Assembly: GCA_947372165.1 (NCBI GenBank)
Contig: CANBSP010000001.1
Location: 62,001-126,000 of the forward strand
Source of the DNA: Actinomycetota bacterium
GTDB taxonomy: Bacteria > Actinomycetota > Actinomycetes > Nanopelagicales > Nanopelagicaceae
Direction of reading: 5' to 3'
DNA length: 64,000 nucleotides
The position numbers and the translations under genes were made by a program. A model generated the notes under the pieces. That model was not told the DNA's origin. It ran no database searches and saw only the letters and a program-made list of their open reading frames with translations. Shown piece by piece: positions 5,154 through 61,904 of this stretch (position 1 is the first letter of the stretch; each line of letters starts with the position of its first letter).

Positions 5154-5159
5154 TACCTT
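5154..5159 (+). promoter_or_regulatory. -10 element of a leaderless promoter for the bldD-like gene
   Basis: TACCTT ends six bases before ATG 5166, so transcription should begin at or next to the start codon. There is no Shine-Dalgarno sequence ahead of this ATG, which supports a leaderless mRNA. Confidence 0.6.
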
Positions 5160-5165
5160 CACCCA

Positions 5166-5675
5166 ATGGAAAATTTAGGAAATCTAGGAAAAGAAGAAGG
5201 TGAGGCCCTCTCTGCGATCGGCCACTCCTTGCGTGCGATAAGGCGCCAGCGCGGGATGACCCTTCGGGATGTCGATCGGGCATCGCATGGCCGCTGGAAG
5301 GCGGTGGTTGTCGGTAGCTATGAAAGGGGTGACCGGGCTCTTACCCTCAAGCGAGCCATCGGGCTCGCGACCTTTTACGAGGTGCCACTCGATCAACTTC
5401 TTGGGCTCGAGGCAGGCGGGGCGAGAGGCAGCCAACCCAGCACCGACTCTCGAGTGATCTTTAACCTCGTTGCGATTCGATCTTTGGCACCGGATCTACC
5501 TCCAACATTTATCCGATATCTCCAGGAGTTGTGCCGAGAAAGGTCAGATTGGAACGGCGAAGTTCTTACTATTCGAGGCAGCGATACAACCGCCCTTGCG
5601 ATCATCGCCGATATCAGGCGCGAAGAGTTGGCCCAATGGGCGATTGATCGAGGAATTCTCATTTCCGCGAACTGA
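5166..5675 (+). CDS. bldD: BldD-like transcriptional regulator with likely c-di-GMP site
   Basis: DNA-binding regulator of 169 residues, close in layout to Streptomyces BldD, the c-di-GMP-controlled master regulator of development. The N-terminal XRE helix-turn-helix spans about residues 15-75 and carries the near-invariant stretch GRWKAVVVGSYERGDRA. In the C-terminal domain R126-S-D128 is followed after eight residues by R137-G-S-D140, which fits the BldD c-di-GMP pattern RxD-X8-RxxD (RGD-X8-RQDD in Streptomyces). It is divergent from the pyr operon and next to nusB-efp, the same neighbourhood as in Streptomyces. What it regulates in a non-sporulating organism is unknown. Confidence 0.88.
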   Translation: MENLGNLGKEEGEALSAIGHSLRAIRRQRGMTLRDVDRASHGRWKAVVVGSYERGDRALTLKRAIGLATFYEVPLDQLLGLEAGGARGSQPSTDSRVIFNLVAIRSLAPDLPPTFIRYLQELCRERSDWNGEVLTIRGSDTTALAIIADIRREELAQWAIDRGILISAN

Positions 5676-5721
5676 TTGATGCAAAGAAGAACGAGCTCGA
5701 ATTAGACCGAACTAGAGCAAA

Positions 5722-6126
5722 CTAGAGCAGAGAGTCCTTAATCGCAGCTAATCTTCCAAGAATGCCATTGAGGTAACTAGACGATTCAACCGTTGAAAGT
5801 TCGGCAGCAATTTCGACAGCCTCATTGATAACGATCTTGTCGTCGAGATCCTTCTCCCAAAGAAGTTCATAGATCGACAGGCGCAAGAGATTACGATCAA
5901 TAGCCGGCATCCGATCCATATCCCATCCCTGGGCATAGGTCATGATCAATTCATCCAACTTCTCCTTGTGCATCTGCACACCATTGAGGAGTTGTTCGAC
6001 ATAAAGTTCTTGAGATAACTCTTGCGACTCGCGACCCTTGTAGAGTTCTAGAGGTGAGGCGTTGCGAAGATCACCCTCATAGAGAAAATCTAGAGCGCGT
6101 TTACGAGCCTTGCGACGAGCACTCAC
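5722..6126 (-). CDS. nusB: transcription antitermination factor NusB
   Basis: RNA-binding helical protein that joins NusE, NusA and NusG on boxA RNA for rRNA antitermination. The N-terminal [18 protein letters not shown] is characteristic, and the 134-residue length is normal. GTG start at 6126 overlaps the efp stop as GTGA. The family usually lies downstream of efp in Actinobacteria, as here. The last gene before the convergent bldD-like gene; 46 bp separate them. Confidence 0.93.
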
Positions 6127-6686
6127 GAATTAGCGCGACCGAGGTATCCCCCGGTGCGAGTATCAACCAAGATCTTCTCATCTTGCTTAATGAAGAGCGG
6201 AACCTGGACTGTAATGCCAGTTTCGACGGTAGCCGGCTTATTGCCACCGGATGAACGATCGCCCTGAAGACCAGGCTCGGTATAGGTCACGATCAGTTCG
6301 ACTGAGGCAGGCAGTTCAACATAGAGCGGATTACCTTCATGTACAGCGACGATCGCTTCGCAATTTTCAAGCATGTAATCGACCGCATCGCCCACAACCG
6401 CAGCAGAGATAGTCATCTGGTCATAATTTTGGCTATCCATAAATACGAAATCTTCGCCATCCTTGTAGAGATACTGCATATCGCGCTTCTCAAGAATCGC
6501 AATCTCGACCTTCACTCCCGCATTAAAAGTCTTTTCCACAACTTTTCCGGTGAGTACTTGCTTCATCTTGGTGCGGACGAATGCTGGTCCCTTACCTGGC
6601 TTTACATGTTGGAATTCAATTACAGTCCAAAGCTGACCATCGATGTCGAGGGTCATGCCATTCTTTAGATCATTGGTCGTTGCCAT
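6123..6686 (-). CDS. efp: translation elongation factor P
   Basis: Relieves ribosome stalling at polyproline. Three-domain, 187-residue protein beginning [20 protein letters not shown]; the tip loop [12 protein letters not shown] carries Lys32, the residue that enters the peptidyl-transferase centre. No EpmA or EarP gene is nearby; actinobacterial EF-P with the PGKGP loop generally works unmodified. The 82 bp upstream (6687-6768) separate it from aroQ and may hold an internal promoter (TTGGTA, 18 bases, TAGATG on the minus strand), but I am not confident of it. Confidence 0.96.
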
Positions 6687-10055: not shown

Positions 10056-10484
10056 CTAATTAACGGCTAGCAACGCCCCAAGGAAGAGAGCTGGAGCGAA
10101 GGCGAGAGTACGAGTGAATCTTCGCCTGATCAATGAGAGCAGACCTATCTGAAAGCCCGCGACAAATAGAGCAACAATCAGGGCGGCGATCAACGCTCCG
10201 CCCTTTCCTAGGAGAAGTGTGAGGACGATGATGAGTTTGATATCTCCCCCACCGATTCCACTCTCGCTATCTCTTCGGAAGAAGAGGACTGGTAAGAGCA
10301 GAATTGCCACGATGGTCGCACTCAAAAGGGCGGAGAGAATCTGACCCGGGGCCCTGAGGTAGATCGCAAGGGAGGCGATAGCGAAGATCCCCAAGCTGGC
10401 ATTTGGAATTTTACGCGTGCGAATATCGTGAATCGAGATCAGAATCCCAAAGATGAGAAGGATAAGGAAACGTAAGGTGGTCAT
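10056..10484 (-). CDS. prepilin peptidase, A24 family, peptidase domain only
   Basis: Integral membrane aspartic peptidase that cuts leader peptides of type IV or Tad pilins. All 142 residues are the peptidase domain: catalytic Asp20 in SIHDIRTRKIPN and Asp81 in GIGGGDIKL (the GxGD motif), with about five hydrophobic segments. The N-terminal methyltransferase domain of PilD is absent, as in other short actinobacterial members. No pilin gene is in the window; its substrates must lie elsewhere. The location between aroC and aroE resembles Mycobacterium tuberculosis Rv2551c. Confidence 0.85.
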   Translation of the reverse strand: MTTLRFLILLIFGILISIHDIRTRKIPNASLGIFAIASLAIYLRAPGQILSALLSATIVAILLLPVLFFRRDSESGIGGGDIKLIIVLTLLLGKGGALIAALIVALFVAGFQIGLLSLIRRRFTRTLAFAPALFLGALLAVN

Positions 10485-10490
10485 ATCCCC

Positions 10491-10496
10491 ACGATA
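10491..10496 (-). promoter_or_regulatory. -10 element, possible leaderless promoter of the prepilin peptidase gene
   Basis: TATCGT on the minus strand ends six bases before ATG 10484. The intervening GGGGAT could instead act as a weak ribosome binding site, so the call is tentative. Confidence 0.4.
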
Positions 10497-15464: not shown

Positions 15465-15749
15465 TTATTCGTCATCCTTTGATGAAGCGCGCTTGCGGCC
15501 AATAAAGCTCGTCGCAGCGCCAGAGATCAACTTCATAATGGAGGAGTTCTTGCCTACGAGAGTGCCGAGCGCCTCATTGATCTTCTCGGTGGCCTTCTCA
15601 GCTGAGGTTGTGATGCGGTTTACGCTTCGAACAGTCTTTTGAACCTCATCGATTAAACGTCCGATTCGGATTACTGTGTAACCGACTGCGAATGCGATCA
15701 CTAAGAGCGCTGACGCAGCAATAATCGTTGCAATTCCACCTGGACCCAT
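15465..15749 (-). CDS. DUF948 membrane-anchored protein
   Basis: Ninety-four residues: a transmembrane helix at about residues 6-28, then an amphipathic helical stretch rich in Val, Thr and Ser (RLIDEVQKTVRSVNRITTSA) and a basic C terminus (IGRKRASSKDDE). This is the layout of the DUF948 family, whose function is unknown; it lies directly before alaS in many Actinobacteria. It is the first gene of the DUF948-alaS-ruvX-mltG-aroE unit. Confidence 0.85.
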   Translation of the reverse strand: MGPGGIATIIAASALLVIAFAVGYTVIRIGRLIDEVQKTVRSVNRITTSAEKATEKINEALGTLVGKNSSIMKLISGAATSFIGRKRASSKDDE

Positions 15750-15755
15750 ATCGGA

Positions 15756-15761
15756 ATCCTA
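15756..15761 (-). promoter_or_regulatory. -10 element of a leaderless promoter for the DUF948-alaS unit
   Basis: TAGGAT on the minus strand ends six bases before ATG 15749, with no ribosome binding site between. Transcription should start on the start codon. Confidence 0.6.
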
Positions 15762-24324: not shown

Positions 24325-25877
24325 TAGAGGACATCCTTTCCTGTTTCAGCAACGACACCCAAGCTCTTCGCCGACAATCCAGAGAGAGTGCCACCATTGG
24401 CATAGAACGGAACTCGCGAGAGGATCGTGACGAATGGCTTTGTGAAGAAGAAGACAACGATCAGGTCAACAAAGGTCGTCAATCCAAGGGTAAACGCGAA
24501 TCCGCGAACTCCGCCGACTGCAAAGAAGTAGAGCAGAGCCGCGGCGATCAATGAGACGAAGTCGGCAACCAAGATTGTGCGACGTGCACGGAGCCAACCA
24601 GTAGCCACCGCCGTCCGAAGTGAGCGACCCTCGCGGACCTCATCACGTAGACGTTCGAAGTAGACGATAAATGAGTCTGCCGTGATGCCGATGGAGACGA
24701 TCGCGCCTGCGATGCCGGCCAAGGTTAATGTGAACCCAATCCACTTACCCAAGAGCAAGAACGAAAGGTAGGTGATTGAACCAGCGACGAGGAGTGAGCC
24801 GACCGAAACCAATCCCAATCCACGGTAATAGAGGAGGGAGTAGAGAACAACGAGAATCAAGCCGATTAAGCCTGCAAGAAGACCGGCGTGTAGTTGATCA
24901 GAACCAAGAGTTGGCGAGATCTGATTGATCTCTTGAACACTGAGTGAGAGCGGAAGAGCGCCGTACTTCAACTTATTTGCAAGATCTGTGGAATCAGTCT
25001 GAGTGAAGTTACCAGTGATCTGGGCAGAACCTGAGTTGATCGCTTCATTGATACGAGGAGCGCTCACAACGAGTCCATCCAAGACGATCGCAGCTTGATT
25101 CTGTGGTGAAGCCAGTGAAGTCACTCGAGTGGTCATCTTGCCGAAGGCAGAAGTACCAGCACCATTAAAAGTAAGGAGAACCATCCAACCATTGCCATTT
25201 GTGTTATCCAATACCGCACTCGCCTTAGCGACCTGCGATCCTTCGACTTCGGCAGGAGCAAGAATGTACTTTGATGCGCCATCACGAGAACATGAGATCA
25301 GAGGCTGATTTGGATCATCAATCGCGCCACCCTGACGGTTTGCGGCGACCGTGCAATCAAGATTTTTAAATGCAGTATCAAGAGCTGAGGTCACACCAGA
25401 TGGGAACGTTGGCGCCGCAGAGGAAACTTTTCCGGACTTACTTGTGGTGGTCGATGACAAAGTTGCGGTAGTCGCAGCGTTACCTGTTCCCACTGCTAGA
25501 ACCTGACGGAAGCGAAGTTGGGCGGTTGCACCAACGAGATCCACGACTCGACTACTGGAGTTACCTGGTACTGAGACAATGATGTCGCCATTGCTCTGTG
25601 ACGAGACTTCGCTCTCGGCCACACCGAGTGAGTTAACGCGCTGACGAATAATTGCCACAGCTTGTTCGACCGCTGCGCGGTCAACCTTTGCGCCGTTGAC
25701 TACCTTAGGAGCCAGAGTGACACTGGTTCCGCCTCGAAGGTCTAATCCCAATTTCAACTTCGTATCGCCCTGGAAGATAGCGAGGGCTGCGAAGGCAACG
25801 AGAATGACGAGCAGGGCGGCAATGGTCCGGCCAGAATTGGCAGGCTTCTTGGTGGCTTTAGAAATATTTGCGGACAT
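24324..25877 (-). CDS. secD: protein translocase subunit SecD
   Basis: Six-pass membrane partner of SecF with a large extracytoplasmic domain. GLDLRGGTSVTL follows the first membrane helix, and the TM4 region carries GITADSFIVYFERLRDE near residue 400. Length 517 is usual for Actinobacteria. The yajC gene normally found between ruvB and secD is absent; only 11 bp lie between the ruvB stop and this ATG. Confidence 0.96.
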   Translation of the reverse strand: MSANISKATKKPANSGRTIAALLVILVAFAALAIFQGDTKLKLGLDLRGGTSVTLAPKVVNGAKVDRAAVEQAVAIIRQRVNSLGVAESEVSSQSNGDIIVSVPGNSSSRVVDLVGATAQLRFRQVLAVGTGNAATTATLSSTTTSKSGKVSSAAPTFPSGVTSALDTAFKNLDCTVAANRQGGAIDDPNQPLISCSRDGASKYILAPAEVEGSQVAKASAVLDNTNGNGWMVLLTFNGAGTSAFGKMTTRVTSLASPQNQAAIVLDGLVVSAPRINEAINSGSAQITGNFTQTDSTDLANKLKYGALPLSLSVQEINQISPTLGSDQLHAGLLAGLIGLILVVLYSLLYYRGLGLVSVGSLLVAGSITYLSFLLLGKWIGFTLTLAGIAGAIVSIGITADSFIVYFERLRDEVREGRSLRTAVATGWLRARRTILVADFVSLIAAALLYFFAVGGVRGFAFTLGLTTFVDLIVVFFFTKPFVTILSRVPFYANGGTLSGLSAKSLGVVAETGKDVL

Positions 25878-25885
25878 AAGAGCGA

Positions 25886-25891
25886 AGTCTA
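25886..25891 (-). promoter_or_regulatory. possible -10 element for secDF, inside the ruvB stop region
   Basis: TAGACT on the minus strand ends eight bases before secD ATG 25877 and overlaps the ruvB stop codon. Spacing is one base longer than at the clear leaderless sites, so confidence is low. Confidence 0.3.
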
Positions 25892-28064: not shown

Positions 28065-28070
28065 GCGGTT

Positions 28071-28076
28071 AGCCTA
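28071..28076 (-). promoter_or_regulatory. -10 element of a leaderless promoter for ruvCAB
   Basis: TAGGCT on the minus strand ends six bases before the GTG start of ruvC. Confidence 0.55.
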
Positions 28077-34724: not shown

Positions 34725-34731
34725 GAATCAC

Positions 34732-34741: not shown

Positions 34742-34749
34742 TCGGGGCT

Positions 34750-37841: not shown

Positions 37842-37847
37842 GTGCAG

Positions 37848-39640: not shown

Positions 39641-39647
39641 ACGGGAG

Positions 39648-39653
39648 ACGTTA
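39648..39653 (-). promoter_or_regulatory. -10 element of a leaderless promoter for pabBC
   Basis: TAACGT on the minus strand ends seven bases before ATG 39640. Confidence 0.5.
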
Positions 39654-40562: not shown

Positions 40563-40568
40563 GTTGGG

Positions 40569-40597
40569 ATCATAGGAAAGGTGCGAATGTATTGCAA
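40569..40597 (-). promoter_or_regulatory. complete leaderless promoter of the VOC gene
   Basis: TTGCAA (40592-40597), 17-base spacer, TATGAT (40569-40574), then six bases to ATG 40562 on the minus strand. The best two-part promoter in the window, and it places the transcript 5' end on the start codon. Confidence 0.75.
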
Positions 40598-42193: not shown

Positions 42194-42199
42194 CCGAGA

Positions 42200-42205
42200 A
42201 GTATG
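42200..42205 (-). promoter_or_regulatory. possible -10 element of the EamA gene
   Basis: CATACT on the minus strand ends six bases before ATG 42193; a weaker match than its neighbours. Confidence 0.35.
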
Positions 42206-42219
42206 TCAGCAGATCACGC

Positions 42220-42225
42220 TACTTT
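42220..42225 (+). promoter_or_regulatory. -10 element of a leaderless promoter for the exonuclease gene
   Basis: TACTTT ends six bases before ATG 42232. Confidence 0.55.
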
Positions 42226-42231
42226 TGGCTA

Positions 42232-42915
42232 ATGAGCGGCAAGAGCTTGGCAGAGACCACATTTGTCATTGTCGACCTCGAAACTACCGGTGGTTCACCG
42301 AAGAATGGTTGTGCTATTACTGAGATTGGCGCAGTTAAGACTCGTGGCGGTCTCCTACTCGGTGAATTCAAATCCTTCGTCAATCCCCTGGCCGCGATTC
42401 CATCCTACATAACAGCGTTGACCGGCATCACCAACGAGATGGTTGCCACCGCGCCAATCATCGATGATGCCCTTCCTGAATTCCTGGCCTTCTGTGGCTC
42501 TGCTTCAGAGACAGTTCTCGTCGCCCATAACGCTCCCTTTGATCTGGGGTTCTTAAAAGCAGCTGCAGTTGAAATTGATCTTCCGTGGCCCGACTTTCGA
42601 GTTCTCGATACCGCAAGGCTTGCTCGTATCGTCTTAGGGCGAGATGAAGTACCAAATTGCAAACTAGGAACACTCGCTCTCTTTTTCAATACTGAAGTGA
42701 AACCTACCCACCGCGCACTTGACGATGCACAAACTACAACAGAAATTCTCTATCGACTCTTTGAAAGATTTGGCGCCATGGGCGTGACGACACTAGAGGA
42801 ACTTTCCGACCAAAGTTCGAGAAGAATTAAACGGCCCCGATATCAAGAAGCTCAGGTACATTGGCAAGTCAAAGAAGAGTATTCCCAATATCAAGAGTGG
42901 GAGGGTGAGGCCTGA
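42232..42915 (+). CDS. DnaQ-like 3'-5' exonuclease (DEDDh)
   Basis: 227 residues. ExoI motif FVIVDLETTGG, ExoII HNAPFDLGFLKAA and ExoIII HRALDDAQTT (DEDDh type) are intact, so it should be active. Could be a proofreading subunit for DNA polymerase III or a separate repair exonuclease; no UvrC-like extension is present. Start at ATG 42232 (MSGKSLAETTF) follows from the promoter. Convergent with trpD, 19 bp apart. Confidence 0.9.
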   Translation: MSGKSLAETTFVIVDLETTGGSPKNGCAITEIGAVKTRGGLLLGEFKSFVNPLAAIPSYITALTGITNEMVATAPIIDDALPEFLAFCGSASETVLVAHNAPFDLGFLKAAAVEIDLPWPDFRVLDTARLARIVLGRDEVPNCKLGTLALFFNTEVKPTHRALDDAQTTTEILYRLFERFGAMGVTTLEELSDQSSRRIKRPRYQEAQVHWQVKEEYSQYQEWEGEA

Positions 42916-43993: not shown

Positions 43994-44395
43994 CTAAGCG
44001 TTGAGCGAAAGACGATTGCGAAGAAGGTCGGCAACCTTTGTAGCGACGGTAAATGGATCGATCGGATGGATCACAGTTGCATCGGCACCGGACCACGAAG
44101 CGAGCCAAGAGTCCTGAACTCTGCCAGTAATGACGAGAGTTGGTGGGCAATTGAAGATCTCATCTTTGAGTTCTCGGGCAATCCCAAGGCCACCCTCTGG
44201 CGTCGACTCACCATCGAGGATAAAGAGATCAATGGATCGCTTCTCATCGATCGCCAGCCGAAGCGCAGCCCCGGTCGCAAACTCCATCACGGAATGGGCT
44301 GGGAGGTCGCTCGCTAATTGGCTACCCAAGGCGGTAATCAGGGTCTGGCGAACGCTTTGATTGTCTGAGTAGATCGCAATCACAGGGGTTCTCAT
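43994..44395 (-). CDS. stand-alone degenerate response-regulator receiver protein
   Basis: 133 residues with the receiver fold only. Phospho-acceptor position Asp61 (FILDGESTPEGG) and a TLVITGR switch Thr are present, but the N-terminal acidic pair is reduced to YSDN (Asp11) and the conserved Lys before the cis-Pro is replaced (VIHPIDP). No output domain and no kinase nearby. Located between trpD and ctaE as a gene of similar type is in other Actinobacteria; role unknown. Confidence 0.75.
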   Translation of the reverse strand: MRTPVIAIYSDNQSVRQTLITALGSQLASDLPAHSVMEFATGAALRLAIDEKRSIDLFILDGESTPEGGLGIARELKDEIFNCPPTLVITGRVQDSWLASWSGADATVIHPIDPFTVATKVADLLRNRLSLNA

Positions 44396-44401
44396 GGTGA
44401 A

Positions 44402-44407
44402 AGTCTA
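44402..44407 (-). promoter_or_regulatory. -10 element of a leaderless promoter for the receiver-trpD unit
   Basis: TAGACT on the minus strand ends six bases before ATG 44395. Confidence 0.55.
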
Positions 44408-44498: not shown

Positions 44499-44504
44499 AA
44501 TAAT
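44499..44504 (+). promoter_or_regulatory. -10 element of a leaderless promoter for ctaE-qcrCAB
   Basis: AATAAT (five of six to consensus) ends six bases before GTG 44511, which has no ribosome binding site. It fixes the ctaE start. Confidence 0.55.
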
Positions 44505-44510
44505 CAGCCC

Positions 44511-45134
44511 GTGAGCACAACTGCACCCCATAAAGCACCCACCCGCCCGAACCTAGTGGCCGTTGGAACGATCGTCTGGCTGTCGAGTGAATTGATGTTC
44601 TTCGCAGCGCTCTTCGCTATGTACTTCACGACCCGCGCAGTCCAGGGTCCAAAGGTCTGGCTCGAGTCGACCGGCATGCTGAATATTAAATTTGCTGCAG
44701 TTAATACAACAGTTCTCGTTCTCTCATCAGTCACATGCCAATTCGGCGTCTTCGCTGCTGAACGATTCCAAGCCAAGCGCACAGGATCTCTTTGGCGCTT
44801 TAGCAAGTGGGGCATGCGTGAGTGGTTTGCACTTACCTTCTTGATGGGTGCCTTCTTTATCGGCGGCCAAGTCTATGAATATGCCAACTTGGTTCATGAA
44901 GGTCTCTCCTTCTCATCCCGTGCATATGGCTCGGTCTTCTATCTCACAACTGGTTTCCATGGACTTCACGTAACCGGTGGTTTGATCGCATTCCTCATCG
45001 TGATGATCCGCGTCTTCAAGGCTCAGAAGTTTGGTCACTCTCAGGCCACGACCGCAATCGTTGTTTCGTATTACTGGCACTTCGTAGATATTGTGTGGAT
45101 CGCGCTCTTCTCAGCGATCTACCTCATTAAGTAG
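44511..45134 (+). CDS. ctaE: cytochrome c oxidase subunit III
   Basis: Membrane subunit of the aa3 terminal oxidase, 207 residues with five hydrophobic segments. [18 protein letters not shown] and the C-terminal [14 protein letters not shown] are family hallmarks. GTG start at 44511 ([14 protein letters not shown]) is set by the promoter. First gene of ctaE-qcrC-qcrA-qcrB, which encodes parts of the fused bc1-aa3 supercomplex of Actinobacteria. Confidence 0.95.
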
Positions 45135-48592: not shown

Positions 48593-48598
48593 TAGAGT
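48593..48598 (+). promoter_or_regulatory. -10 element of a leaderless promoter for the GNAT gene
   Basis: TAGAGT ends six bases before ATG 48605. Confidence 0.5.
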
Positions 48599-48604
48599 GC
48601 GCAG

Positions 48605-49087
48605 ATGAATATTCGTCCAGCAGGTCCCGGTGATATCAGGATAATCCTTGATCTGATCCGGGACCTCGCTATTTACGAGAAGGCAGAAGACCAGGCGAAG
48701 GGAAGCGCTACACAGATTGAGCATGCTCTCTTCTCCCCCACCCCCACTGCACATTGCGAACTCGTCGAGGTCGAGAATGGTGAGATCGCAGGATTTGCAT
48801 TGTGGTTTAACAATTATTCAACCTGGACTGGTAACCCAGGACTCTATCTAGAGGACCTCTTCATTAAGCCCGAACACCGCGCAAGTGGATACGGGAAAGC
48901 GCTGCTCATCCACTTGGCCAAAAAGTGTGTTGCAAACGGTTGGGATCGATTCCAATGGTGGGTGCTCGACTGGAATGATCCAGCGATCGCCTTCTACAAA
49001 TCCCTTGGCGCCATCCCGATGGATGAGTGGACGGTATTCCGCGTCAGTGGCGATGCTCTTACCGCTCTCGCCAACACTTCAATCTAG
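48605..49087 (+). CDS. GNAT-family N-acetyltransferase
   Basis: 160 residues with the GNAT fold: MNIRPAGPGDIRIILDLIRD at the start, EDLFIKPEHRASGYGKALL (acetyl-CoA pyrophosphate loop RASGYGKA) and NDPAIAFYKSLGAIPMDEW near the end. The overall layout matches diamine (spermidine/spermine-type) acetyltransferases, but the substrate cannot be fixed. Convergent with ctaF, 31 bp apart. Confidence 0.9.
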   Translation: MNIRPAGPGDIRIILDLIRDLAIYEKAEDQAKGSATQIEHALFSPTPTAHCELVEVENGEIAGFALWFNNYSTWTGNPGLYLEDLFIKPEHRASGYGKALLIHLAKKCVANGWDRFQWWVLDWNDPAIAFYKSLGAIPMDEWTVFRVSGDALTALANTSI

Positions 49088-51189: not shown

Positions 51190-51963
51190 TTACGCCGCCT
51201 TAAGGGTAGAGAGATAAGTCTGATATTGGGCAGGTGTTACAACCTTCACCGTAAAGAGCATCTGTGAATGGTTACGACCGCAGAGGATGTTGCAACGACC
51301 AGGGAATGTGCCGAGTTTCTGAGCAGCAAATTCAATATGGTTGGTTACATGAGGAAGAGCCTGGATCTGAATCATGAAGGCTGGAATCCAGAAACCATGG
51401 TCTACATCGTTCGCCGTGATCGTATAGAGAACCTTCTCCCCTAGCGGAACAACTAACGTTGGTGGCTGCGCCGGAGTGCCGGTTACGGTCTGAGCAGGAC
51501 CTGTGCCCGCATCTGCATAGGTAAACTGCCACGACCATTGGATGGCATTGATCATAATATTGTGAGGCGCTGTTGCTGCCGAGTCGATCTTCGTAATCTT
51601 CGCTTCATCTCGCGCGGTGTAACCGAAGAGAACAAGCACGATGATGAATGCAATCGCAGTCAGTGAGATCTCGATCTTATTGTTATGTCGGAATTGGCGC
51701 GGAAGATCTTCGCTCTTTCGACGGTTAAAGATGACTGGATAGAAGAGCGCTAACGCGGTGAGTACTCCAACTACACCGGCGGCAATCCATGCTCCTTGCC
51801 AGAGTGGCAGCGTTGTGTCGTTGACACTCGAGAGACCCTTATCAAAGCCAAGTCCAGAGATGTTCTTTGACTGGCAACCGGTGAGCAAGAGAGCCAGGCC
51901 AGATAGGGCAACGACAAGTCCAGCTTTTTTCGCTGAAGAAGCTGAAGGAATAGGCATACGCAT
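51190..51963 (-). CDS. ctaC: cytochrome c oxidase subunit II
   Basis: 257 residues: lipoprotein-type signal with lipobox LLTGC (Cys near residue 30), two transmembrane helices and an extracytoplasmic cupredoxin domain with the CuA ligands in [14 protein letters not shown]. Accepts electrons from QcrC. ATG 51963 is preferred over ATG 51957 because it lies seven bases from a -10 element. Confidence 0.96.
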
Positions 51964-51970
51964 GGGTCGA

Positions 51971-51976
51971 AGTTTA
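51971..51976 (-). promoter_or_regulatory. -10 element of a leaderless promoter for ctaCDF
   Basis: TAAACT on the minus strand ends seven bases before ATG 51963. Confidence 0.55.
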
Positions 51977-52009
51977 TCGGGGGAACTCGCGCTTCGCGCT
52001 CGGCGGGGG

Positions 52010-52015
52010 TAGCGT
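52010..52015 (+). promoter_or_regulatory. -10 element of a leaderless promoter for the desulfurase-like/tusA pair
   Basis: TAGCGT ends seven bases before ATG 52023. It is back to back with the ctaC promoter, 33 bp away, without overlap. Confidence 0.5.
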
Positions 52016-52022
52016 TCGAACT

Positions 52023-53087
52023 ATGGGTTCAGTCACAGGCGGCTTCACGAGCGAAAGCCCCCTCCACCCTGCTGCCCGAGAGATCCTGATCGAGGCCATC
52101 GACCGCGGTTGGGCCGATCCAAGCAAGATCCATCAGCCTTCCAGGGAGTTGGCCCTCCTGCTTGAGGAGTCAAAGACCCTGATCGCAGGCCATCTCAAGG
52201 TCGAAGCCGGTTCGCTCCACTTTCTCGGCGAGCGAAACCTTGGATATCTCCTCGGCATATCTGGATTGAGGAGTCCGGCTACAGAATCAACCCTCTTCTA
52301 CCCCACCACCTCTCGATCTGAAGTGATCGCCATTGCAGAAGCCGACCGCCTGGCATCGGCGATTTCGGTCGATCTTGATGGCTCCTTTATTTGCCCAGTC
52401 GGTGGAGAGGATGATCTTCTTGCCGCCGCCGCAACCAATGTTGAGACCGGCGCTTACTCCCCGGATCTTTCAAATTTTCAAGGACGGATCTTCATCGATG
52501 CCACCGCCGATCCATTGGCGTCGCTTCCGGCACGATTCAGTAGTGCCTTATGGGAAAGCTCTAGCTGGTCTGGACCGCAAGGTCTTTCCATCTTCTCACT
52601 GCAAGAGCGTCAATCCTGGCGAAATCCATTGCCGCACCTTGATCACGAAATTGTTCCAGGCGGATTTAATCCAGCGCTTGCCATTGCCAGTGCCGTCGCG
52701 TTCGACGCCTATGTCAAAGATTGGAACTCAAGAGCATCATCCACGCTGATCCTCAATGAATGTCTCCGAAGTTTTATTTCGGATGAGATCGGCGATGTCG
52801 ATATCGCTTCACCAAAAACTGGCGCACCTCATTTTCTCTCGTTCTCTTTCCTTTATGTAGATGCACAGCAACTCGTGGACCGTATGTCTAGGCTTGGTTT
52901 CGATCTTGATTCTGGGTCTGCATGTACTAGTGCCAACTTAGAACCAAGCCATGTCTTAGCTGCCATGGGAAGACTCACTCACGGAAATGTTCGAGTCAGA
53001 TTGCATTCTGGTTTGACGAAGAATGATCTTCTGGAGATGCTCACGGCTCTCAAGATTGTTGTCGAAGACCTTCGAAGCAATCGATGA
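52023..53087 (+). CDS. cysteine desulfurase-like protein lacking the PLP lysine
   Basis: 354 residues with the class V aminotransferase/NifS fold. The cysteine loop is intact (DSGSACTSANLEPSHVL, Cys301), as is the C-terminal NVRVRLHSGLT. But where the family has (H/R)K before a GGPxG loop, the sequence reads ESSSWSGPQG, so the PLP lysine position is Ser181; the N-terminal PLP phosphate region (normally GATE-like) is LGERNL. It is therefore unlikely to be a normal PLP desulfurase. Overlaps tusA as ATGA; a related gene precedes ctaC in other Actinobacteria. It may be a sulfur carrier or scaffold. Confidence 0.8.
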   Translation: MGSVTGGFTSESPLHPAAREILIEAIDRGWADPSKIHQPSRELALLLEESKTLIAGHLKVEAGSLHFLGERNLGYLLGISGLRSPATESTLFYPTTSRSEVIAIAEADRLASAISVDLDGSFICPVGGEDDLLAAAATNVETGAYSPDLSNFQGRIFIDATADPLASLPARFSSALWESSSWSGPQGLSIFSLQERQSWRNPLPHLDHEIVPGGFNPALAIASAVAFDAYVKDWNSRASSTLILNECLRSFISDEIGDVDIASPKTGAPHFLSFSFLYVDAQQLVDRMSRLGFDLDSGSACTSANLEPSHVLAAMGRLTHGNVRVRLHSGLTKNDLLEMLTALKIVVEDLRSNR

Positions 53088-53330: not shown

Positions 53331-54317
53331 TTAGCCAATAAGAATGGGTTGTAACTTTGCTGCCACTTCGGCTGCAGCCACTTCACCAAAGGATTCTGTG
53401 AATCGCTTCAAGAATTCACCTTCATTAAAGCGATACTCCTGTGGACCGATCGCCTCCAGGCAGAAGGTTGCCATCATTGATCCAATCTCGCCGCAACGTT
53501 GATGGCTAAAGCCCCACGATAGGCCTGCGAGGAATCCTGATCTAAAGGCATCACCAATTCCAGTTGGATCGGCTTTGCTTCGCTCAATCGCACAAGGAAC
53601 ATGAATCGTCTCCTGGCCATGTTCTTCGATGCGAACACCATTTTCACCCAAGGTAATGACACGGATCTGGACTTGATTGAAGAGTTCTTCATCTGTCCAT
53701 CCGGTCTTCTGAAGTGTGAGGGCGAGTTCATACTCGTTGAGGAAGAGATACTTTGCGCCGGTGATGAGATTCTTAATATCTTCACCCTCCAACCTCGCAA
53801 GTTGCTGTGATGGGTCAGCAGCGATTGGAATGCCGAGAGCGCGAGCAGTTTCGGAGTGACGCAACATTGCTGCTGGATCATCGGGTGAGATCATCAAGAG
53901 ATCAAGGCCACCAACTTTTTCAACGATCGGACCAAGTTCGATCTCGCGTGCTTCGCTCATCGCCCCTGGGAAGAAGGATGCCATTTGGTTGAGCGATCTA
54001 TCTGTCGTCACCATATAACTAGCGGTGTACAACTGTGAAATCCGCACATGATCAGTGTTAACACCATGGCGCTTGAGCCACGCACCATAGTCGGTCCAAT
54101 CGTGACCAACCGATGCGATCAAGATGGGTGAGAGCCCGAGGACGCCCATACCGAATGTGATATTTCCGCCGATTCCGCCTCGACGTATATCAAGGGTGTC
54201 GACCAAAAATGAGAGAGAGACCTTATTGAGCGAACCTTCAACAAATGAATCCGAGAATTCCCCCGGAAAGGTCATGATGAGATCGCGACCGATAGAGCCA
54301 GCTACTCCAATTTTCAT
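53331..54317 (-). CDS. PfkB-family carbohydrate or adenosine kinase
   Basis: 328 residues. N-terminal GGIGGNITFGMGVLG and the C-terminal ATP-site/base motif DPTGIGDAFRSGFLAGL (the GxGD anion hole). The location next to the oxidase and ErpA genes matches M. tuberculosis Rv2202c, an adenosine kinase, so adenosine salvage is the best guess; ribokinase-like sugar phosphorylation is possible. Confidence 0.85.
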   Translation of the reverse strand: MKIGVAGSIGRDLIMTFPGEFSDSFVEGSLNKVSLSFLVDTLDIRRGGIGGNITFGMGVLGLSPILIASVGHDWTDYGAWLKRHGVNTDHVRISQLYTASYMVTTDRSLNQMASFFPGAMSEAREIELGPIVEKVGGLDLLMISPDDPAAMLRHSETARALGIPIAADPSQQLARLEGEDIKNLITGAKYLFLNEYELALTLQKTGWTDEELFNQVQIRVITLGENGVRIEEHGQETIHVPCAIERSKADPTGIGDAFRSGFLAGLSWGFSHQRCGEIGSMMATFCLEAIGPQEYRFNEGEFLKRFTESFGEVAAAEVAAKLQPILIG

Positions 54318-54323
54318 AGCCGA

Positions 54324-54329
54324 ACGTTA
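54324..54329 (-). promoter_or_regulatory. -10 element of a leaderless promoter for the PfkB kinase gene
   Basis: TAACGT on the minus strand ends six bases before ATG 54317. Confidence 0.5.
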
Positions 54330-54355: not shown

Positions 54356-54724
54356 TTAATTGAATGAATCGCCGCAGGCGCATGAACCTTGGGCATTTGG
54401 ATTATCAATCGTGAAGCCTTGCTTCTCAATGGTATCCACGAAATCAATCGATGCTCCCATGAGGTAAGGAGTGCTCATCTTGTCGGTCACAACTTTCACT
54501 GAACCAAATGTCACAACTGTGTCGCCATCAAGGGCACGATCATCGAAGTAGAGCTGGTAACGAAGACCCGAACAACCACCAGGTTGGACCGCTACGCGAA
54601 GCGAGAGGTCAGTACGACCCTCTTGCTCGAGGAGTGATTGCACCTTCTGTGATGCAACATCAGTGAGGAGAATGCCAGTGGCAGTGCTCTGAATGGTTAC
54701 GTCAGTTGTGGTCTCTGTGCTCAT
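54356..54724 (-). CDS. erpA: A-type iron-sulfur cluster insertion protein
   Basis: 122 residues, HesB/IscA/ErpA family. The three cluster cysteines are present as PGGCSGLRYQL and the C-terminal GSCACGDSFN. Start at ATG 54724 (MSTETTTDV) is supported by a -10 element seven bases upstream; a longer frame to 54772 is rejected. Single gene, in the same place as Rv2204c. Confidence 0.92.
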   Translation of the reverse strand: MSTETTTDVTIQSTATGILLTDVASQKVQSLLEQEGRTDLSLRVAVQPGGCSGLRYQLYFDDRALDGDTVVTFGSVKVVTDKMSTPYLMGASIDFVDTIEKQGFTIDNPNAQGSCACGDSFN

Positions 54725-54731
54725 GGGCAAA

Positions 54732-54737
54732 ACTTTA
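54732..54737 (-). promoter_or_regulatory. -10 element of a leaderless promoter for erpA
   Basis: TAAAGT on the minus strand ends seven bases before ATG 54724. A GGAGG just upstream of it lies within the promoter, too far (12 bases) and probably untranscribed. Confidence 0.5.
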
Positions 54738-54806: not shown

Positions 54807-54812
54807 TATGAT
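54807..54812 (+). promoter_or_regulatory. -10 element of a leaderless promoter for nadA
   Basis: TATGAT (five of six to consensus) ends six bases before ATG 54819. Confidence 0.6.
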
Positions 54813-54818
54813 GGCGCT

Positions 54819-55970
54819 ATGGCCAGTACTCCGCTCACCGACCTCCTTTTAATGGGGCGCGGGCGCGATCTTGGCAGCGAACGTGGCGTCTCCTGTGATG
54901 GCGAACTTCCAGCGGCAAGCGATCCGGCACTTGTAGAGCGGGCCATCGCCGCCCGAATGGCGCTCGGTTCGCGCGCGATGATCTTGGGCCATCATTACCA
55001 ACGTGATGAGGTAATCGACTTCGCCGATATCACCGGCGACTCATTCAAACTTGCTCAAGCCGCAGCTTCCAACCCAGAAGCTGAATTAGTGATCTTCTGC
55101 GGTGTTCACTTCATGGCAGAGAGCGCCGATGTTCTCACCACTGATCGCCAGAAAGTTATTCTTCCTGACCTAGCAGCCGGCTGTTCGATGGCTGATATGG
55201 CAGCCGCCAACCAAGTCAATGATGCTTGGCAGGTCTTCGAACGGATCGGCATCGCAAACCGAACCATTCCAGTTACTTATATGAACTCAACTGCTGCAAT
55301 CAAATCATTTACCGGCGAGCATGGCGGAACCATCTGCACCTCATCAAATGCTGAACGAGCGATGCGATGGGCGCTAGATCAAGGAGAGAAGATCTTCTTC
55401 CTACCCGATCAACACCTCGGACGAAATACTGCTGTCCTGAAACTTGGTCTTAATCTGGATGAATGTGTCCTATGGAATCCGTGGAAGGCAAATGGCGGAT
55501 TAACTGATCAAGAGATCCAAGATGCCAAGGTAATTTTGTGGCGAGGCCATTGCTCTGTGCATGGCCGATTTACGCTCCAAAATATTCACGATGTTCGTGA
55601 GCGAGTTCCTGGGGTGAAAGTTCTGGTTCACCCTGAATGCCAACATGACGTGGTCTCGCAAGCAGATGTAGTCGGCAGTACCGAATTCATCATTAAGACA
55701 ATTGAAGAATCTGCTCCCGGGTCAAAGTGGGCCATCGGAACCGAACTCAATCTCGTCCAACGATTATCGCGAAGGTTTGCCGATCGCGAGATCCTCTTCC
55801 TCGATAAGACTGTCTGCTATTGCTCGACCATGAACCGCATCGATCTCCCCCATCTGGTCTGGGCGATGGAGACCCTGCAATCTGGGCGAATTGTTAACCA
55901 GATCAGCGTAGATCCTCGCGTGGCTCAGTTCTCGAGAGTTGCGCTAGAGCGAATGCTGGCCCTACCGTAA
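54819..55970 (+). CDS. nadA: quinolinate synthase
   Basis: 4Fe-4S enzyme that makes quinolinate for NAD from iminoaspartate and dihydroxyacetone phosphate. 383 residues of the long NadA type. Cluster cysteines lie in FCGVHFMAES, HPECQHDV and the C-terminal KTVCYCSTMNRI. nadB and nadC are not adjacent. Start at ATG 54819 (MASTPLTDLLLMG) is set by the promoter; the open frame back to 54693 would overlap erpA. Confidence 0.94.
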   Translation: MASTPLTDLLLMGRGRDLGSERGVSCDGELPAASDPALVERAIAARMALGSRAMILGHHYQRDEVIDFADITGDSFKLAQAAASNPEAELVIFCGVHFMAESADVLTTDRQKVILPDLAAGCSMADMAAANQVNDAWQVFERIGIANRTIPVTYMNSTAAIKSFTGEHGGTICTSSNAERAMRWALDQGEKIFFLPDQHLGRNTAVLKLGLNLDECVLWNPWKANGGLTDQEIQDAKVILWRGHCSVHGRFTLQNIHDVRERVPGVKVLVHPECQHDVVSQADVVGSTEFIIKTIEESAPGSKWAIGTELNLVQRLSRRFADREILFLDKTVCYCSTMNRIDLPHLVWAMETLQSGRIVNQISVDPRVAQFSRVALERMLALP

Positions 55971-55974
55971 CCTC

Positions 55975-56505
55975 ATGAGCGAGAACACTGAGAATAAAAA
56001 GGGCAGAGCAACACCAAAGCGTAAGGATGCCGAGGCAAAGCTCAAGGTAAATTCGATCGCTCCTTCAACTACGAAGGAAGGAAAGGCTCGCGATCGCGCG
56101 CTTGAAAAGAGTCGCCGAGTCGAAGCTCGCGCCGCATTCATGCGTGGTGAAGAGAGTGCACTGCCTGCTCGTGACCGCGGTCCTGCTAAGAAGTTTGTCC
56201 GAAACTACATTGATTCACGTCGCTCGCTCGGAGAGTATTTCTTACCAACCATCATGGTTGTCCTTGTTCTTACAGCCATCCCAGTTAAGGCGATTCAAGT
56301 CCTCGCGATTCTCTTCATGTATGCCGCGATGATCTACTCGTTCGCTTCAGCCTTCTTTGTAGGACGTAAGATCAAGAAGCTCGTCGCCGAGAAGTTCCCG
56401 CAAGAACCACTTAAGGGAATCGGAATGTATGGCTGGCTCCGTTCAACCCAGATGCGCCGAATGCGCGCACCTGCTCCACAAGTAAAGCGTGGAGATACTT
56501 TCTAA
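55975..56505 (+). CDS. DUF3043 membrane protein
   Basis: 176 residues: a long basic, disordered N terminus rich in Lys and Ala, RGPAKKFVRNYIDSRRSLGE, two adjacent transmembrane helices (about residues 85-130), and a basic C-terminal tail. This is the DUF3043 family found only in Actinobacteria; function unknown. Four bases after nadA, so probably cotranscribed. Confidence 0.85.
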   Translation: MSENTENKKGRATPKRKDAEAKLKVNSIAPSTTKEGKARDRALEKSRRVEARAAFMRGEESALPARDRGPAKKFVRNYIDSRRSLGEYFLPTIMVVLVLTAIPVKAIQVLAILFMYAAMIYSFASAFFVGRKIKKLVAEKFPQEPLKGIGMYGWLRSTQMRRMRAPAPQVKRGDTF

Positions 56506-56557: not shown

Positions 56558-57553
56558 TTAAGCGCGAGGATTTGGACTCTGGTTCTTTGACGGATCACGT
56601 TCTGGCAAATTCCCAAGGACCTTATCAATCGATTTCATTGTCTCAGGCGTCAGCTTTACACCAGATGCCTTCACATTCTCTTTTACCTGAGAAGGTTTTG
56701 TTGCACCCATAATCACAGAGGAGACGTTGGGATTCTGCAACGCCCACGCAAGTGCGAGCTGCCCAACAGTGAGATCAACTGATTCCGCTATTGGCTTCAG
56801 ATTTTGGACTGCCTCAAGAACTTCTTCACGCAACCAACCGGACATGAAGTTTCCAGATTTGTGACGTGCACGTGAACCAACCGGAGCCTTCTTGCCTGGC
56901 AGATATTTGCCAGTAAGAACGCCTTGCGCCATTGGTGACCAGACGATCTGGCCGATCCCCTCGCGCTCGCAGAGCGGAACAACTTCGCTCTCAATGACGC
57001 GCCAGAGCATTGAATATTGTGGCTGGCTTGAAACGAAGCGATCAAAATTATTCTCTTTTTGATACTTTAAAGCGGTGCCGATCTGCTTGGCATCCCACTC
57101 CGAGAATCCGATGTAATTGACCTTACCTTGACGAATCAGATCTTCAAATGCGCGAAGGGTTTCTTCAATCGGAGTCTCAACATCAAAGCGGTGTGCTTGA
57201 TAGAGATCGATATGGTCGGTATTCAAACGCTTAAGCGATGCGTGTACGGATTCCATGATGTGCTTGCGGGATAGGCCTCGGTCGTTCTTGCCCGTGCCTG
57301 TTGGGAAATAGACCTTGGTGAAGAGTTCGTAGGATTCGCGGCGAACGCCCTTCAGGGCCTTACCCAGCACAGTCTCAGCCTTGGTTCCGGCGTAGACATC
57401 GGCGGTATCAAAGGTGGTGATGCCAGCGTCAAGTGCCGCCTTCACGCAACTGATCGCGGCATCTTGCTCTACTTGATTGCCGTGGGTGATCCAATTTCCA
57501 TAAGAAATCTCTGAGACATACATTCCGGTCTTGCCAAGGCGACGATATTCCAT
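56558..57553 (-). CDS. aldo/keto reductase
   Basis: NADPH-dependent oxidoreductase, 331 residues, TIM barrel. Catalytic tetrad residues in FDTADVYAGTKAE (Asp, Tyr), ELFTKVYF (Lys) and LYQAHRFD (His); IVWSPMAQGVLTGKY and ALQNPNVSSVIMGATKP mark the cofactor site. Resembles the YajO / potassium-channel beta-subunit group; physiological substrate unknown. Start at ATG 57553 follows from the promoter; the longer frame to 57634 is not supported. Confidence 0.9.
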   Translation of the reverse strand: MEYRRLGKTGMYVSEISYGNWITHGNQVEQDAAISCVKAALDAGITTFDTADVYAGTKAETVLGKALKGVRRESYELFTKVYFPTGTGKNDRGLSRKHIMESVHASLKRLNTDHIDLYQAHRFDVETPIEETLRAFEDLIRQGKVNYIGFSEWDAKQIGTALKYQKENNFDRFVSSQPQYSMLWRVIESEVVPLCEREGIGQIVWSPMAQGVLTGKYLPGKKAPVGSRARHKSGNFMSGWLREEVLEAVQNLKPIAESVDLTVGQLALAWALQNPNVSSVIMGATKPSQVKENVKASGVKLTPETMKSIDKVLGNLPERDPSKNQSPNPRA

Positions 57554-57560
57554 GGGTAAG

Positions 57561-57570
57561 AGAGTACCCT
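57561..57570. promoter_or_regulatory. overlapping divergent leaderless -10 elements
   Basis: AGAGTACCCT holds TACTCT on the minus strand (57561-57566, seven bases from the aldo/keto reductase ATG 57553) and TACCCT on the plus strand (57565-57570, six bases from GTG 57577). They share TA at 57565-57566. Only 23 bp separate the start codons and neither has a ribosome binding site. Confidence 0.65.
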
Positions 57571-57576
57571 GACCTT

Positions 57577-57807
57577 GTGAAGATGCTACGAAATCGCGCC
57601 TCTGTCTTAGTGACCTCAGCACTTGTCGCCACATTCACAGTGGCCCCATTCTCTGCCCTGGTCGCGTTTGCCGATGAGGTCGAAACTGGCCCCTATGTTC
57701 ATGAAGAAGGCCGCACCTTTGAAGGACTTCCTGTACTTCTCGTCGTCTGCGCGCTCATTATCGCTGTTGGACTCGCCTACGGAATTGGCCGCCGCTCTCG
57801 TAAGTAG
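57577..57807 (+). CDS. small secreted or membrane protein of unknown function
   Basis: 76 residues: basic N terminus, hydrophobic signal segment (about residues 9-30, cut possible after FADE-preceding Ala), a short acidic stretch EVETGPYVHEEGRTFEGLP, and a C-terminal transmembrane helix ending in the basic GRRSRK. I do not recognise the family. GTG 57577 is supported by the leaderless promoter; ATG 57583 is the alternative. Confidence 0.65.
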   Translation: MKMLRNRASVLVTSALVATFTVAPFSALVAFADEVETGPYVHEEGRTFEGLPVLLVVCALIIAVGLAYGIGRRSRK

Positions 57808-60013: not shown

Positions 60014-60765
60014 TCGAGATCAAGGATTTAGAAGTCTCACTATCAGGTAAGAAGATTCTCCACGATATCTCCTTGACGATATCCGAAGGAAAATGGAGTT
60101 GCCTGGTTGGGCCAAATGGCGCCGGCAAGACAACGCTTCTCAAAGTATTACTTGGAACAGCTTCGTATTCAGGATCGGTCAAAAGCCATGGTTCTGAGGT
60201 CTACCGCGACCAACGTCGCAATGTTGCATTCGTCCCACAACAACCTCAGATCCCGCAAGGAATTACCGTAGCCGAATATGTCATGCTCGGTCGCGCTAAG
60301 AAGGATGGCTGGGGTAATGAATCAGCTAAGAGTCGATCTCTTATTGGTGAGATCCTGACCCAGACAAATCTCTATGGTCTTCATAAGGAATATGTCTCAC
60401 ACCTCTCTGGCGGGGAGATGCAACGGACCTTGATCGCAAGAGCTCTCGCCCAAGAGCCTGAGTTGATCCTATTAGATGAACCAACGAGCGCACTCGATCT
60501 TCACCATCAAATTGATGTACTCAACAATCTACAAATCCTTCAAAAATCTGGCGTGACGATCATTTCGACCATGCATGACCTCACTCTCGCCGCCATGTAT
60601 GCCGAACGAATTATTGTGATGCAATCAGGTCGAGTTTTAGCTGAGGGTGATTCAACCGAGATCATTCACTCATCTGAGTTGCGAACTGCCTTTGACGATC
60701 GAATCAATGTCTTTACGCTCGACTCTGGTCGACCAGTAATCGTCGCTAAGAAAGATGAGAGATAG
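60010..60765 (+). CDS. btuD: ABC transporter ATP-binding protein of the B12 importer
   Basis: 251 residues with Walker A GPNGAGKTTLL, Q-loop FVPQQPQIP, signature LSGGEMQRTLIARAL, Walker B LILLDEPTSALD and switch His in STMHDLT. FepC/BtuD type. Ends two bases from the gcvT stop (convergent). Confidence 0.94.
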   Translation: MIEIKDLEVSLSGKKILHDISLTISEGKWSCLVGPNGAGKTTLLKVLLGTASYSGSVKSHGSEVYRDQRRNVAFVPQQPQIPQGITVAEYVMLGRAKKDGWGNESAKSRSLIGEILTQTNLYGLHKEYVSHLSGGEMQRTLIARALAQEPELILLDEPTSALDLHHQIDVLNNLQILQKSGVTIISTMHDLTLAAMYAERIIVMQSGRVLAEGDSTEIIHSSELRTAFDDRINVFTLDSGRPVIVAKKDER

Positions 60766-60767
60766 CT

Positions 60768-61892
60768 CTACCTCACATGCGAGGCGACGAATGGCGCCTT
60801 GACGATCTCAACTTCACTTATGCGCCCTCGAACATCGATCTCGAGGTGATCGCCCACCTTCATGCGTGGATCAATCAGAGCAAGCCCAATACCCACTTTG
60901 AGGGTCGGCGAGAAAGTTCCGCTCGTGATTTCACCCACGACTATTCCATCTTTAAGAACGCTCATTCCAGCTCTCGGAATTCCACGATCGAGAGATTTAA
61001 TTGCTCGCAATTGCCTCGTGATGCCAGCTTCTTTCAGAGAAAGTAGCGCCTTCTTGCCGTGAAAAGCATCCTTGTCGAGCACTACCGCCCAAGCGGCTCC
61101 TGCTTCGATTGCCGCTATCTCGGTGGAGAGTTCGTGGCCGTGAAGTGGATAACCCATTTCGGTACGTAACGTGTCCCGTGAACCAAGTCCGCAGACTCGA
61201 CCATCAAATGGTGCCATTGCATCAAGAAGAACTTCCCACAGCGCTTCACTCTTCTCCCAGAGTGGAACTAATTCAAAACCATATTCACCGGTGTAGCCAG
61301 TTCGACAAATAATGACAGGACCCAACTCTTCATGGCCTGGAATAAGTCCATCGGTGAAAGCCATATAGTCAAAATCGATCGTGATGCCGAGGGAGGCAAG
61401 CACATCGCGTGACTTTGGACCTTGGAGTGCAAGCACGCCGTACTTCTGATGTGCATCCGTGATTTTCAAGGATGCGGGTGCGCCATCTTGCAACGCCTGT
61501 AAGACATCTGCGCAATTGGCGGCATTCGGGATTAAGAAGAGATCGCTCTCGCTGCGACGATAAACAATGAGATCATCGATCACACCGCCGTCGGCATTGC
61601 AGATCAGGTTGTACTGTGCGCTGCCATTTTCAATCTTGATGAGATCATTTGTCAGAATTGAATTGATGTAGGCGAGGGCGCCCTCGCCCTTGACCTCAAT
61701 CTTGCCGAGGTGGGAGACATCGAAGAGTCCAACCCGCTCGCGGACAGCAGTATGTTCGGCGATGACTCCCCCGGGTGCGCCTACTCGGCTACCTTGCGGA
61801 TATTCGATCGGCATATCCCAGCCACCAAAATCAGCTAGCTTCGCGCCGGTCTCTACATGCCACTCAAAGAGCGGGGATTTCAATTCACTCAT
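60768..61892 (-). CDS. gcvT: glycine cleavage system aminomethyltransferase (T protein)
   Basis: Transfers the methylene group from H protein to tetrahydrofolate. 374 residues: GWDMPIEYPQGSR, FDVSHLGKIEVKG near the N terminus, RTGYTGEYGFEL in the folate domain and LGSRDTLRTEMGYPLHGHEL. gcvP and gcvH are not in the window, though the lpdA homologue (L protein candidate) begins at 63669. Leaderless promoter upstream. Confidence 0.95.
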   Translation of the reverse strand: MSELKSPLFEWHVETGAKLADFGGWDMPIEYPQGSRVGAPGGVIAEHTAVRERVGLFDVSHLGKIEVKGEGALAYINSILTNDLIKIENGSAQYNLICNADGGVIDDLIVYRRSESDLFLIPNAANCADVLQALQDGAPASLKITDAHQKYGVLALQGPKSRDVLASLGITIDFDYMAFTDGLIPGHEELGPVIICRTGYTGEYGFELVPLWEKSEALWEVLLDAMAPFDGRVCGLGSRDTLRTEMGYPLHGHELSTEIAAIEAGAAWAVVLDKDAFHGKKALLSLKEAGITRQLRAIKSLDRGIPRAGMSVLKDGIVVGEITSGTFSPTLKVGIGLALIDPRMKVGDHLEIDVRGRISEVEIVKAPFVASHVR

Positions 61893-61898
61893 CTACGA

Positions 61899-61904
61899 AA
61901 CCTA
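61899..61904 (-). promoter_or_regulatory. -10 element of a leaderless promoter for gcvT
   Basis: TAGGTT on the minus strand ends six bases before ATG 61892. No glycine riboswitch is possible in such a transcript. Confidence 0.5.

Follow-up and report, generated by a model that had tools for sequence, protein, structure and literature searches.

Leaderless translation starts appear to be the rule for divergently transcribed first genes in a Nanopelagicaceae actinobacterium

Many genes that head transcription units in a 64,000-nt window from the genome of a presumably freshwater Nanopelagicaceae (Actinomycetota) bacterium carry a -10-like hexamer, TANNNT, six or seven bases before their start codon. 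The window (G+C content ~51%) is taken from contig 1, bases 62001-126000, of a metagenome-assembled genome (MAG) that comprises 1.364 Mb in 21 contigs. We consider it highly probable that these hexamers belong to promoters of the primary-sigma type whose transcripts start on the start codon itself, giving leaderless mRNAs, beside operon-internal genes and many housekeeping genes that are led by a Shine-Dalgarno (SD) site. Putatively leaderless starts of this kind predominate at divergent heads, most strongly across gaps of up to 65 bp, and form no universal default. We hold the observation to be true, well supported and of a known kind, with a frequency that is apparently high. Transcript 5' ends were deduced from sequence throughout.

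Distance and composition of the motif

In all, 464 kb of the same MAG was sampled, and 433 genes were called with an in-house gene caller. The distance d was defined as the number of bases between the end of the hexamer and the start codon, with TANNNT as the strict motif; in the first test, start codons were set by coding score alone, the upstream letters being unused. TANNNT was found at d = 6 in 26 and at d = 7 in 9 of 86 divergent genes, versus 0.8 per position at distances of 15-49. The fixed spacing that an earlier, sequence-only reading of the window had noticed by eye also stood out against shuffled sequence, i.e., 47 of 178 head-type genes had the motif at d = 6-7, compared with 5.2 on average and never more than 13 over 500 shuffles.

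A mixture model with a leaderless and an SD-led class, in which the start codon is a hidden variable and which also picks among candidate starts, was fitted to 424 genes. It settled on the hexamer T-A-G-A/G-C-T with a spacer of 6 (72%) or 7 (15%) for the one class, and on an AGGAGG-type motif for the other. The leaderless share of the 86 divergent genes was 80-81% (bootstrap 66-88%), and 83-86% of the internal genes were assigned to the SD class; overall, 133 of the 424 genes (31%) were called leaderless. Controls gave leaderless shares of 2-7% (shuffles), 0.9% (in-frame decoy starts, n = 85) and 1.1% (windows displaced by 15 nt, n = 86). Leaderless calls start with ATG (100) or GTG (32) and avoid TTG (1), and SD calls start with ATG (228), GTG (40) or TTG (12). 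SD-like 4-mers precede 29% of the leaderless calls versus 24% in shuffled sequence, and 71% of the SD calls versus 29%. The triplet SRN stands before 47 of 120 hexamers.

Gene arrangement and the two modes of initiation

Arrangement was assessed for genes that have no upstream alternative start. By the mixture, 40 of 46 divergent genes are leaderless, and 27 of these 46 carry TANNNT at d = 6-7. Same-strand genes, in which operon members and true heads are not separable here, were called leaderless in 15 of 46 cases behind gaps of 15-49 bp and in 10 of 26 behind gaps of 50-99 bp. Among all divergent genes, the leaderless fraction was 34/36 at gaps of up to 65 bp, 16/17 at 66-150 bp, and 23/33 beyond. 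As had been claimed for downstream operon genes, those that overlap their upstream neighbour behave differently from heads: 109 of 116 are SD-led, and 3 are called leaderless.

The sequence-only reading had gone further and proposed leaderless initiation as the default for first genes of transcription units. This holds for divergent heads (~80% of the 86) and fails as a blanket statement at same-strand genes behind gaps of at least 100 bp, which mainly use an SD site (7 of 31 leaderless). Judged by their N-termini, the genes led by an SD site presumably include rplU, gap, clpC, infB, rpsO, tpiA and csp. Since compact divergent heads look leaderless and long-gap same-strand genes are mostly SD-led, the default applies to the former and not to every first gene, and the claim should be narrowed to divergent heads.

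SD initiation itself is very probably intact. The sampled genome has genes for IF3 and for an S1 protein that contains four S1 domains, and the 16S rRNA 3' end reads GGATCACCTCCTTT, a normal anti-SD, in 20 of 20 loci from other genera of the family. A 16S search gave no match in any genome of the window's own genus, and the stretches scanned of the window's assembly hold just a 5' fragment of 16S. Taken together, IF3, S1 and the anti-SD of the relatives suggest that the leaderless mode was added to SD initiation rather than substituted for it.

Conservation among genus relatives

Conservation was assessed for window genes in up to nine relatives of the same genus. In 40 ortholog upstream regions of genes with a spacer of 6, the best-kept positions are -12, -11 and -7 (T, A and T; identity 0.82, 0.80 and 0.85), followed by -9 (0.72), -16 (0.68) and -1 (0.57), and the remaining positions from -25 to -1 range from 0.23 to 0.50. 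The rest of the upstream regions of leaderless genes has drifted among the relatives, and SD-type genes in these relatives have no such identity peak. TANNNT occurs at d = 6-8 in 48 of 63 usable ortholog upstream regions, compared with 10 occurrences over all other distances from 0 to 33. Three leaderless calls of the mixture were not relied on: 27983- probably lies inside ruvC and 44595+ inside ctaE, and the posterior of 45151+ is just 0.59; once they are removed, the count becomes 48 of 53.

Genes of the window that carry the hexamer

The coordinates, strand, hexamer, distance to the start codon, and, where noted, start codon are as follows.

5154..5166, plus: bldD-like gene (Pfam BldD-like_C); TACCTT, 6 nt, ATG
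10484..10496, minus: Peptidase_A24 gene; TATCGT, 6 nt, ATG; same-strand gap of 40 bp
15749..15761, minus: DUF948-like gene (Pfam score under the curated cut-off); TAGGAT, 6 nt, ATG
25877..25891, minus: secD; TAGACT, 8 nt, ATG; same-strand gap of 11 bp
28064..28076, minus: ruvC; TAGGCT, 6 nt, GTG; gene caller and mixture preferred the later start 27983
34724..34750, divergent spacer: minus, CDP-alcohol phosphatidyltransferase gene (pgsA in the sequence-only reading), TACGAT, 7 nt; plus, gene 34750+, TAGAGT, 8 nt
37841..37853, minus: thrS; TAACCT, 6 nt, ATG; same-strand gap of 12 bp
39640..39653, minus: pabB (chorismate-binding); TAACGT, 7 nt, ATG
40562..40574, minus: VOC-type gene (Pfam 3-dmu-9_3-mt); TATGAT, 6 nt, ATG
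42193..42232, 38-bp divergent spacer: minus, EamA gene, CATACT, 6 nt; plus, exonuclease gene, TACTTT, 6 nt
44395..44407, minus: 133-aa gene (the former "receiver"); TAGACT, 6 nt, ATG
44499..44511, plus: ctaE (COX3); AATAAT, 6 nt, GTG
48593..48605, plus: GNAT gene; TAGAGT, 6 nt, ATG
51963..52023, 59-bp divergent spacer: minus, ctaC, TAAACT, 7 nt; plus, gene 52023 (the former "desulfurase-like" gene), TAGCGT, 7 nt
54317..54329, minus: PfkB gene; TAACGT, 6 nt, ATG
54724..54737, minus: erpA; TAAAGT, 7 nt, ATG
54807..54819, plus: nadA; TATGAT, 6 nt, ATG
55963..55975, plus: DUF3043 gene; TACCGT, 6 nt, ATG; same-strand gap of 4 bp
57553..57577, 23-bp divergent spacer: minus, aldo/keto reductase gene, TACTCT, 7 nt; plus, small gene, TACCCT, 6 nt, GTG
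61892..61904, minus: gcvT; TAGGTT, 6 nt, ATG
62040..62052, plus: pepA (Peptidase_M17); -10-like TTAGAT, 6 nt, ATG

Nineteen of these genes had been named beforehand. The strict motif at 6 or 7 bases is present in 18 of them; the sole exception is ctaE, with AATAAT 6 bases before the GTG at 44511, and pabB conforms only with the ATG at 39640 as its start. Of the 19, described beforehand as usually having no ribosome binding site, 3 (DUF948, GNAT and erpA) do have an SD-like 4-mer upstream. Among the window proteins scanned, Pfam gave no match for "receiver" (43994-44395), "desulfurase-like" (52023-53087), gene 34750+, or the small gene 57577+. Six further window genes fit the pattern, i.e., 10484-, 25877- (d = 8), 34750+ (d = 8), 42193- (CATACT), 55975+ and 62052+ (TTAGAT). 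Divergent genes of SD type in the window are 19535-, 19713+ (a DUF349 gene), 40718+ and 5026-, the last of which is divergent from bldD and was given a 695-bp gap because the gene caller missed bldD; genes 9923- (132-bp gap) and 58119+ (311-bp gap) are also of SD type.

Among the genus orthologs listed, all 9 of the DUF948-like gene have TANNNT at d = 6-7, and secD keeps both hexamer and spacing unchanged in 6 of 6. A CAGAT tandem repeat (61930-61992, 12.6 copies, 84% matches) lies between the gcvT promoter and pepA.

The absence of leaders on thrS and gcvT had been taken as a sign of a leaderless default. For thrS it is unsurprising, as in M. tuberculosis leaderless transcripts are reported for 7 of the 14 tRNA synthetase genes that have a primary start site (PMC3898074). 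At the Rfam gathering cut-offs, no riboswitch was detected in the window, gcvT included, or in the 464 kb. Rfam matches in the 464 kb comprise tRNAs, one 5S, one 16S fragment, and no more than two structured cis-regulatory leaders (L012:12510-12568 and L015:19111-19183), namely an msiK RNA and an Actino-pnp RNA.

Compact divergent spacers

Both genes are called leaderless in 32 of 43 divergent pairs, one in 9, and none in 2. In two of the 43 pairs, both in the window, the opposed -10 hexamers overlap and share one TA in the register that was tested. The 34724/34750 pair (25-bp spacer) builds both hexamers from the TA at 34736-34737, and the 57553/57577 pair (23-bp spacer) from the TA at 57565-57566; in each case the two start codons lie at a distance of 6-8 bp. 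Two other short divergent spacers, of 15 bp (contig 1 43600-43616, L003) and 28 bp (contig 2 49553-49582, L008), have opposed -10 hexamers in other registers.

Bidirectional promoters of E. coli are described as pseudo-symmetrical elements that drive divergent transcription, with common start-site distances of 18, 10 and 23 bp (PMC12825309). The shared-TA pairs resemble them in their opposed elements and comparable predicted start-site distances. They differ from the E. coli promoters as described there in that both transcripts would start no more than 2 nt from the start codons. With transcript starts at the start codons, the intergenic spacer itself would be the promoter.

Proposed mechanism and alternative explanations

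In the proposed mechanism, RNA polymerase would use promoters of the primary-sigma type (TANNNT, partly preceded by S-R-N). With the usual spacing between -10 and transcript start, the first transcribed base would be the A or G of the start codon, and ribosomes would initiate on the bare 5' AUG or GUG of the leader-free mRNA, entering either as 70S or as 30S with initiator tRNA by analogy with studied bacteria. Operon-internal genes and many long-gap housekeeping genes would be initiated via an SD site.

Besides the mainly SD-led same-strand genes behind long gaps, several points weigh against this mechanism. No clear -35 element was found: TTGN precedes the hexamer at a spacer of 17 in just 6 of 120 cases. 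The shuffled null climbs to 14% when the window is used alone, only 34% of the genome is covered, and genes were called with an in-house tool. In the relatives, 15 of the 63 usable ortholog upstream regions are without TANNNT at d = 6-8, and of 79 ortholog places 7 are unaligned at the start and 9 have no start codon there.

The hexamer could be a real but secondary promoter, with the main transcript beginning farther upstream and carrying a leader with a weak SD or none. Precedent exists in 47 M. tuberculosis genes that are reported to have an alternative start, with leadered or leaderless transcripts (PMC3898074), and erpA has a GGAGG upstream. This GGAGG, however, lies a short way 5' of the -10 and before the predicted transcript start, and the three erpA orthologs listed lack it but do have a TANNNT. 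Furthermore, across spacers of up to 65 bp (34/36 leaderless) a leadered promoter would be pushed largely into the neighbouring gene, and SD 4-mers at leaderless starts are close to the shuffled level, so that we regard a secondary promoter as improbable. Alternatively, TANNNT may act in translation as an AT-rich unpaired stretch that is read by S1 or the 30S subunit and not as a promoter, for which its fixed distance to the start codon and the four-domain S1 protein could be invoked. Against this, the element is scarce where a gene overlaps the one upstream of it (3 of 116 called leaderless), conservation is highest at -12, -11 and -7, i.e., at promoter positions, and SRN precedes many of the hexamers; we consider it very improbable.

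Least credible of all is that the pattern arose from picking start codons that suit the motif. The sequence-only reading did judge by eye, and the mixture also selects starts, with doubtful choices at ruvC and ctaE. Yet the peak persists with starts set by coding score alone and is seen in divergent genes without an upstream alternative; the controls with decoy starts, displacement or shuffling reach no more than 1-7%, and the orthologs agree. Leaderless transcription from primary-sigma-type promoters is the reading that we prefer.

Comparison with other genomes

For comparison between genomes, hard calls at divergent genes were used with a similar training size, most comparison genomes being represented by ~100 kb only. 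Here, 65 of 80 divergent genes were leaderless by this measure, although chunks of the sampled genome differed (27/32, 15/16, 15/18, 4/6 and 4/8). A genus member (G011), whose 170 kb include 70 kb in synteny with the window, gave 21/30. Four other genera of the family pooled gave 42/88 (Fisher p 6e-6 versus the sampled genome), and four high-GC actinobacteria pooled gave 28/108. E. coli gave 3/24, its mixture estimate of 16% not exceeding its shuffled null of 18%; shuffled nulls of the other comparison genomes were 5-12%. As promoters may be harder to spot in high-GC genomes and most of the comparison samples are this small, this ranking is provisional.

Streamlining, i.e., more leaderless genes in smaller genomes, was considered and is not clearly supported: leaderless fractions were 6/16 (G038, 1.2 Mb), 6/18 (G037, 2.2 Mb), 11/26 (G053, 1.6 Mb), 19/28 (G031, 1.3 Mb) and 18/32 (G022, 1.4 Mb, another family).

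Two sets of aspS-neighbourhood loci (L082-L117 and L118-L149), which gave 2% and 37% leaderless divergent genes with the free model, were excluded since a handful of orthologous genes keeps recurring there (e.g., the SD-led DUF349 gene 19713+). Pooled stretches of other genus members (69%) were excluded because they are orthologous to the window, and the G029 stretches L182-L185 and the G003 contigs L175 and L176 were also left out. Two records titled MAG: Bifidobacterium breve (L073 and L114) encode an AspS that is 80-85% identical to that of the sampled actinobacterium, so these titles look mislabelled.

A wider proposal, which we find possible but on balance doubtful, is that leaderless starts form the majority among first genes in the whole genus, at a level at least that of any measured bacterium, and that divergent spacers have shrunk to the promoter, some to one shared TA. 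Against a genus-wide high level, the non-syntenic 100 kb of G011 alone gives 0.47 (0.23-0.66) from 10 divergent genes.

Comparison with known systems

The system appears to be the known actinobacterial one at an apparently high frequency. On the basis of TA-like signals, Zheng 2011 (PMC3160421) predicted a leaderless proportion of ~20% in 86 of 89 actinobacterial genomes. As reported there, TAnnnT lies ~10 bp before the start and leaderless and SD-led genes coexist, as in our sample; the proportion of ~20% differs from the 31% of sampled genes and ~80% of divergent genes obtained here by a different method. In M. tuberculosis, leaderless transcripts are reported for 26% of the genes that have a primary start site, and SRN for 49% of TANNNT promoters (PMC3898074). 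There too, TANNNT often follows SRN, and tRNA synthetases are often leaderless, while ribosomal proteins and initiation factors are not. Respiration and energy genes are, by that account, nearly without leaderless mRNAs, whereas ctaC and ctaE look leaderless here. In C. glutamicum, 33% of mRNAs were measured to be leaderless, in contrast to the sequence-derived calls of this study, and the mapped leaderless starts (~79% AUG, ~21% GUG) are close to the 100 ATG and 32 GTG found here (PMC3890552). Deinococcus deserti, a member of another phylum, is reviewed as having leaderless mRNAs as its majority mode, measured at ~60% of genes (PMC9031893), and a paper on a prediction tool states that, in the bacterial species it refers to, leaderless transcripts can make up as much as 40% of those in a genome (PMC9581028). 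Within the paper collection searched, no paper joins leaderless mRNAs with Planktophila or Nanopelagicales, or Planktophila with transcription start.

Biological meaning

The Nanopelagicaceae of freshwater are abundant in lakes. Should the majority of their first genes be leaderless, start prediction that is based on SD sites will misplace starts, and regulation must act mainly via the promoter. In that case, these bacteria would also be a natural setting in which to study how initiation on bare 5' ends works alongside SD initiation.

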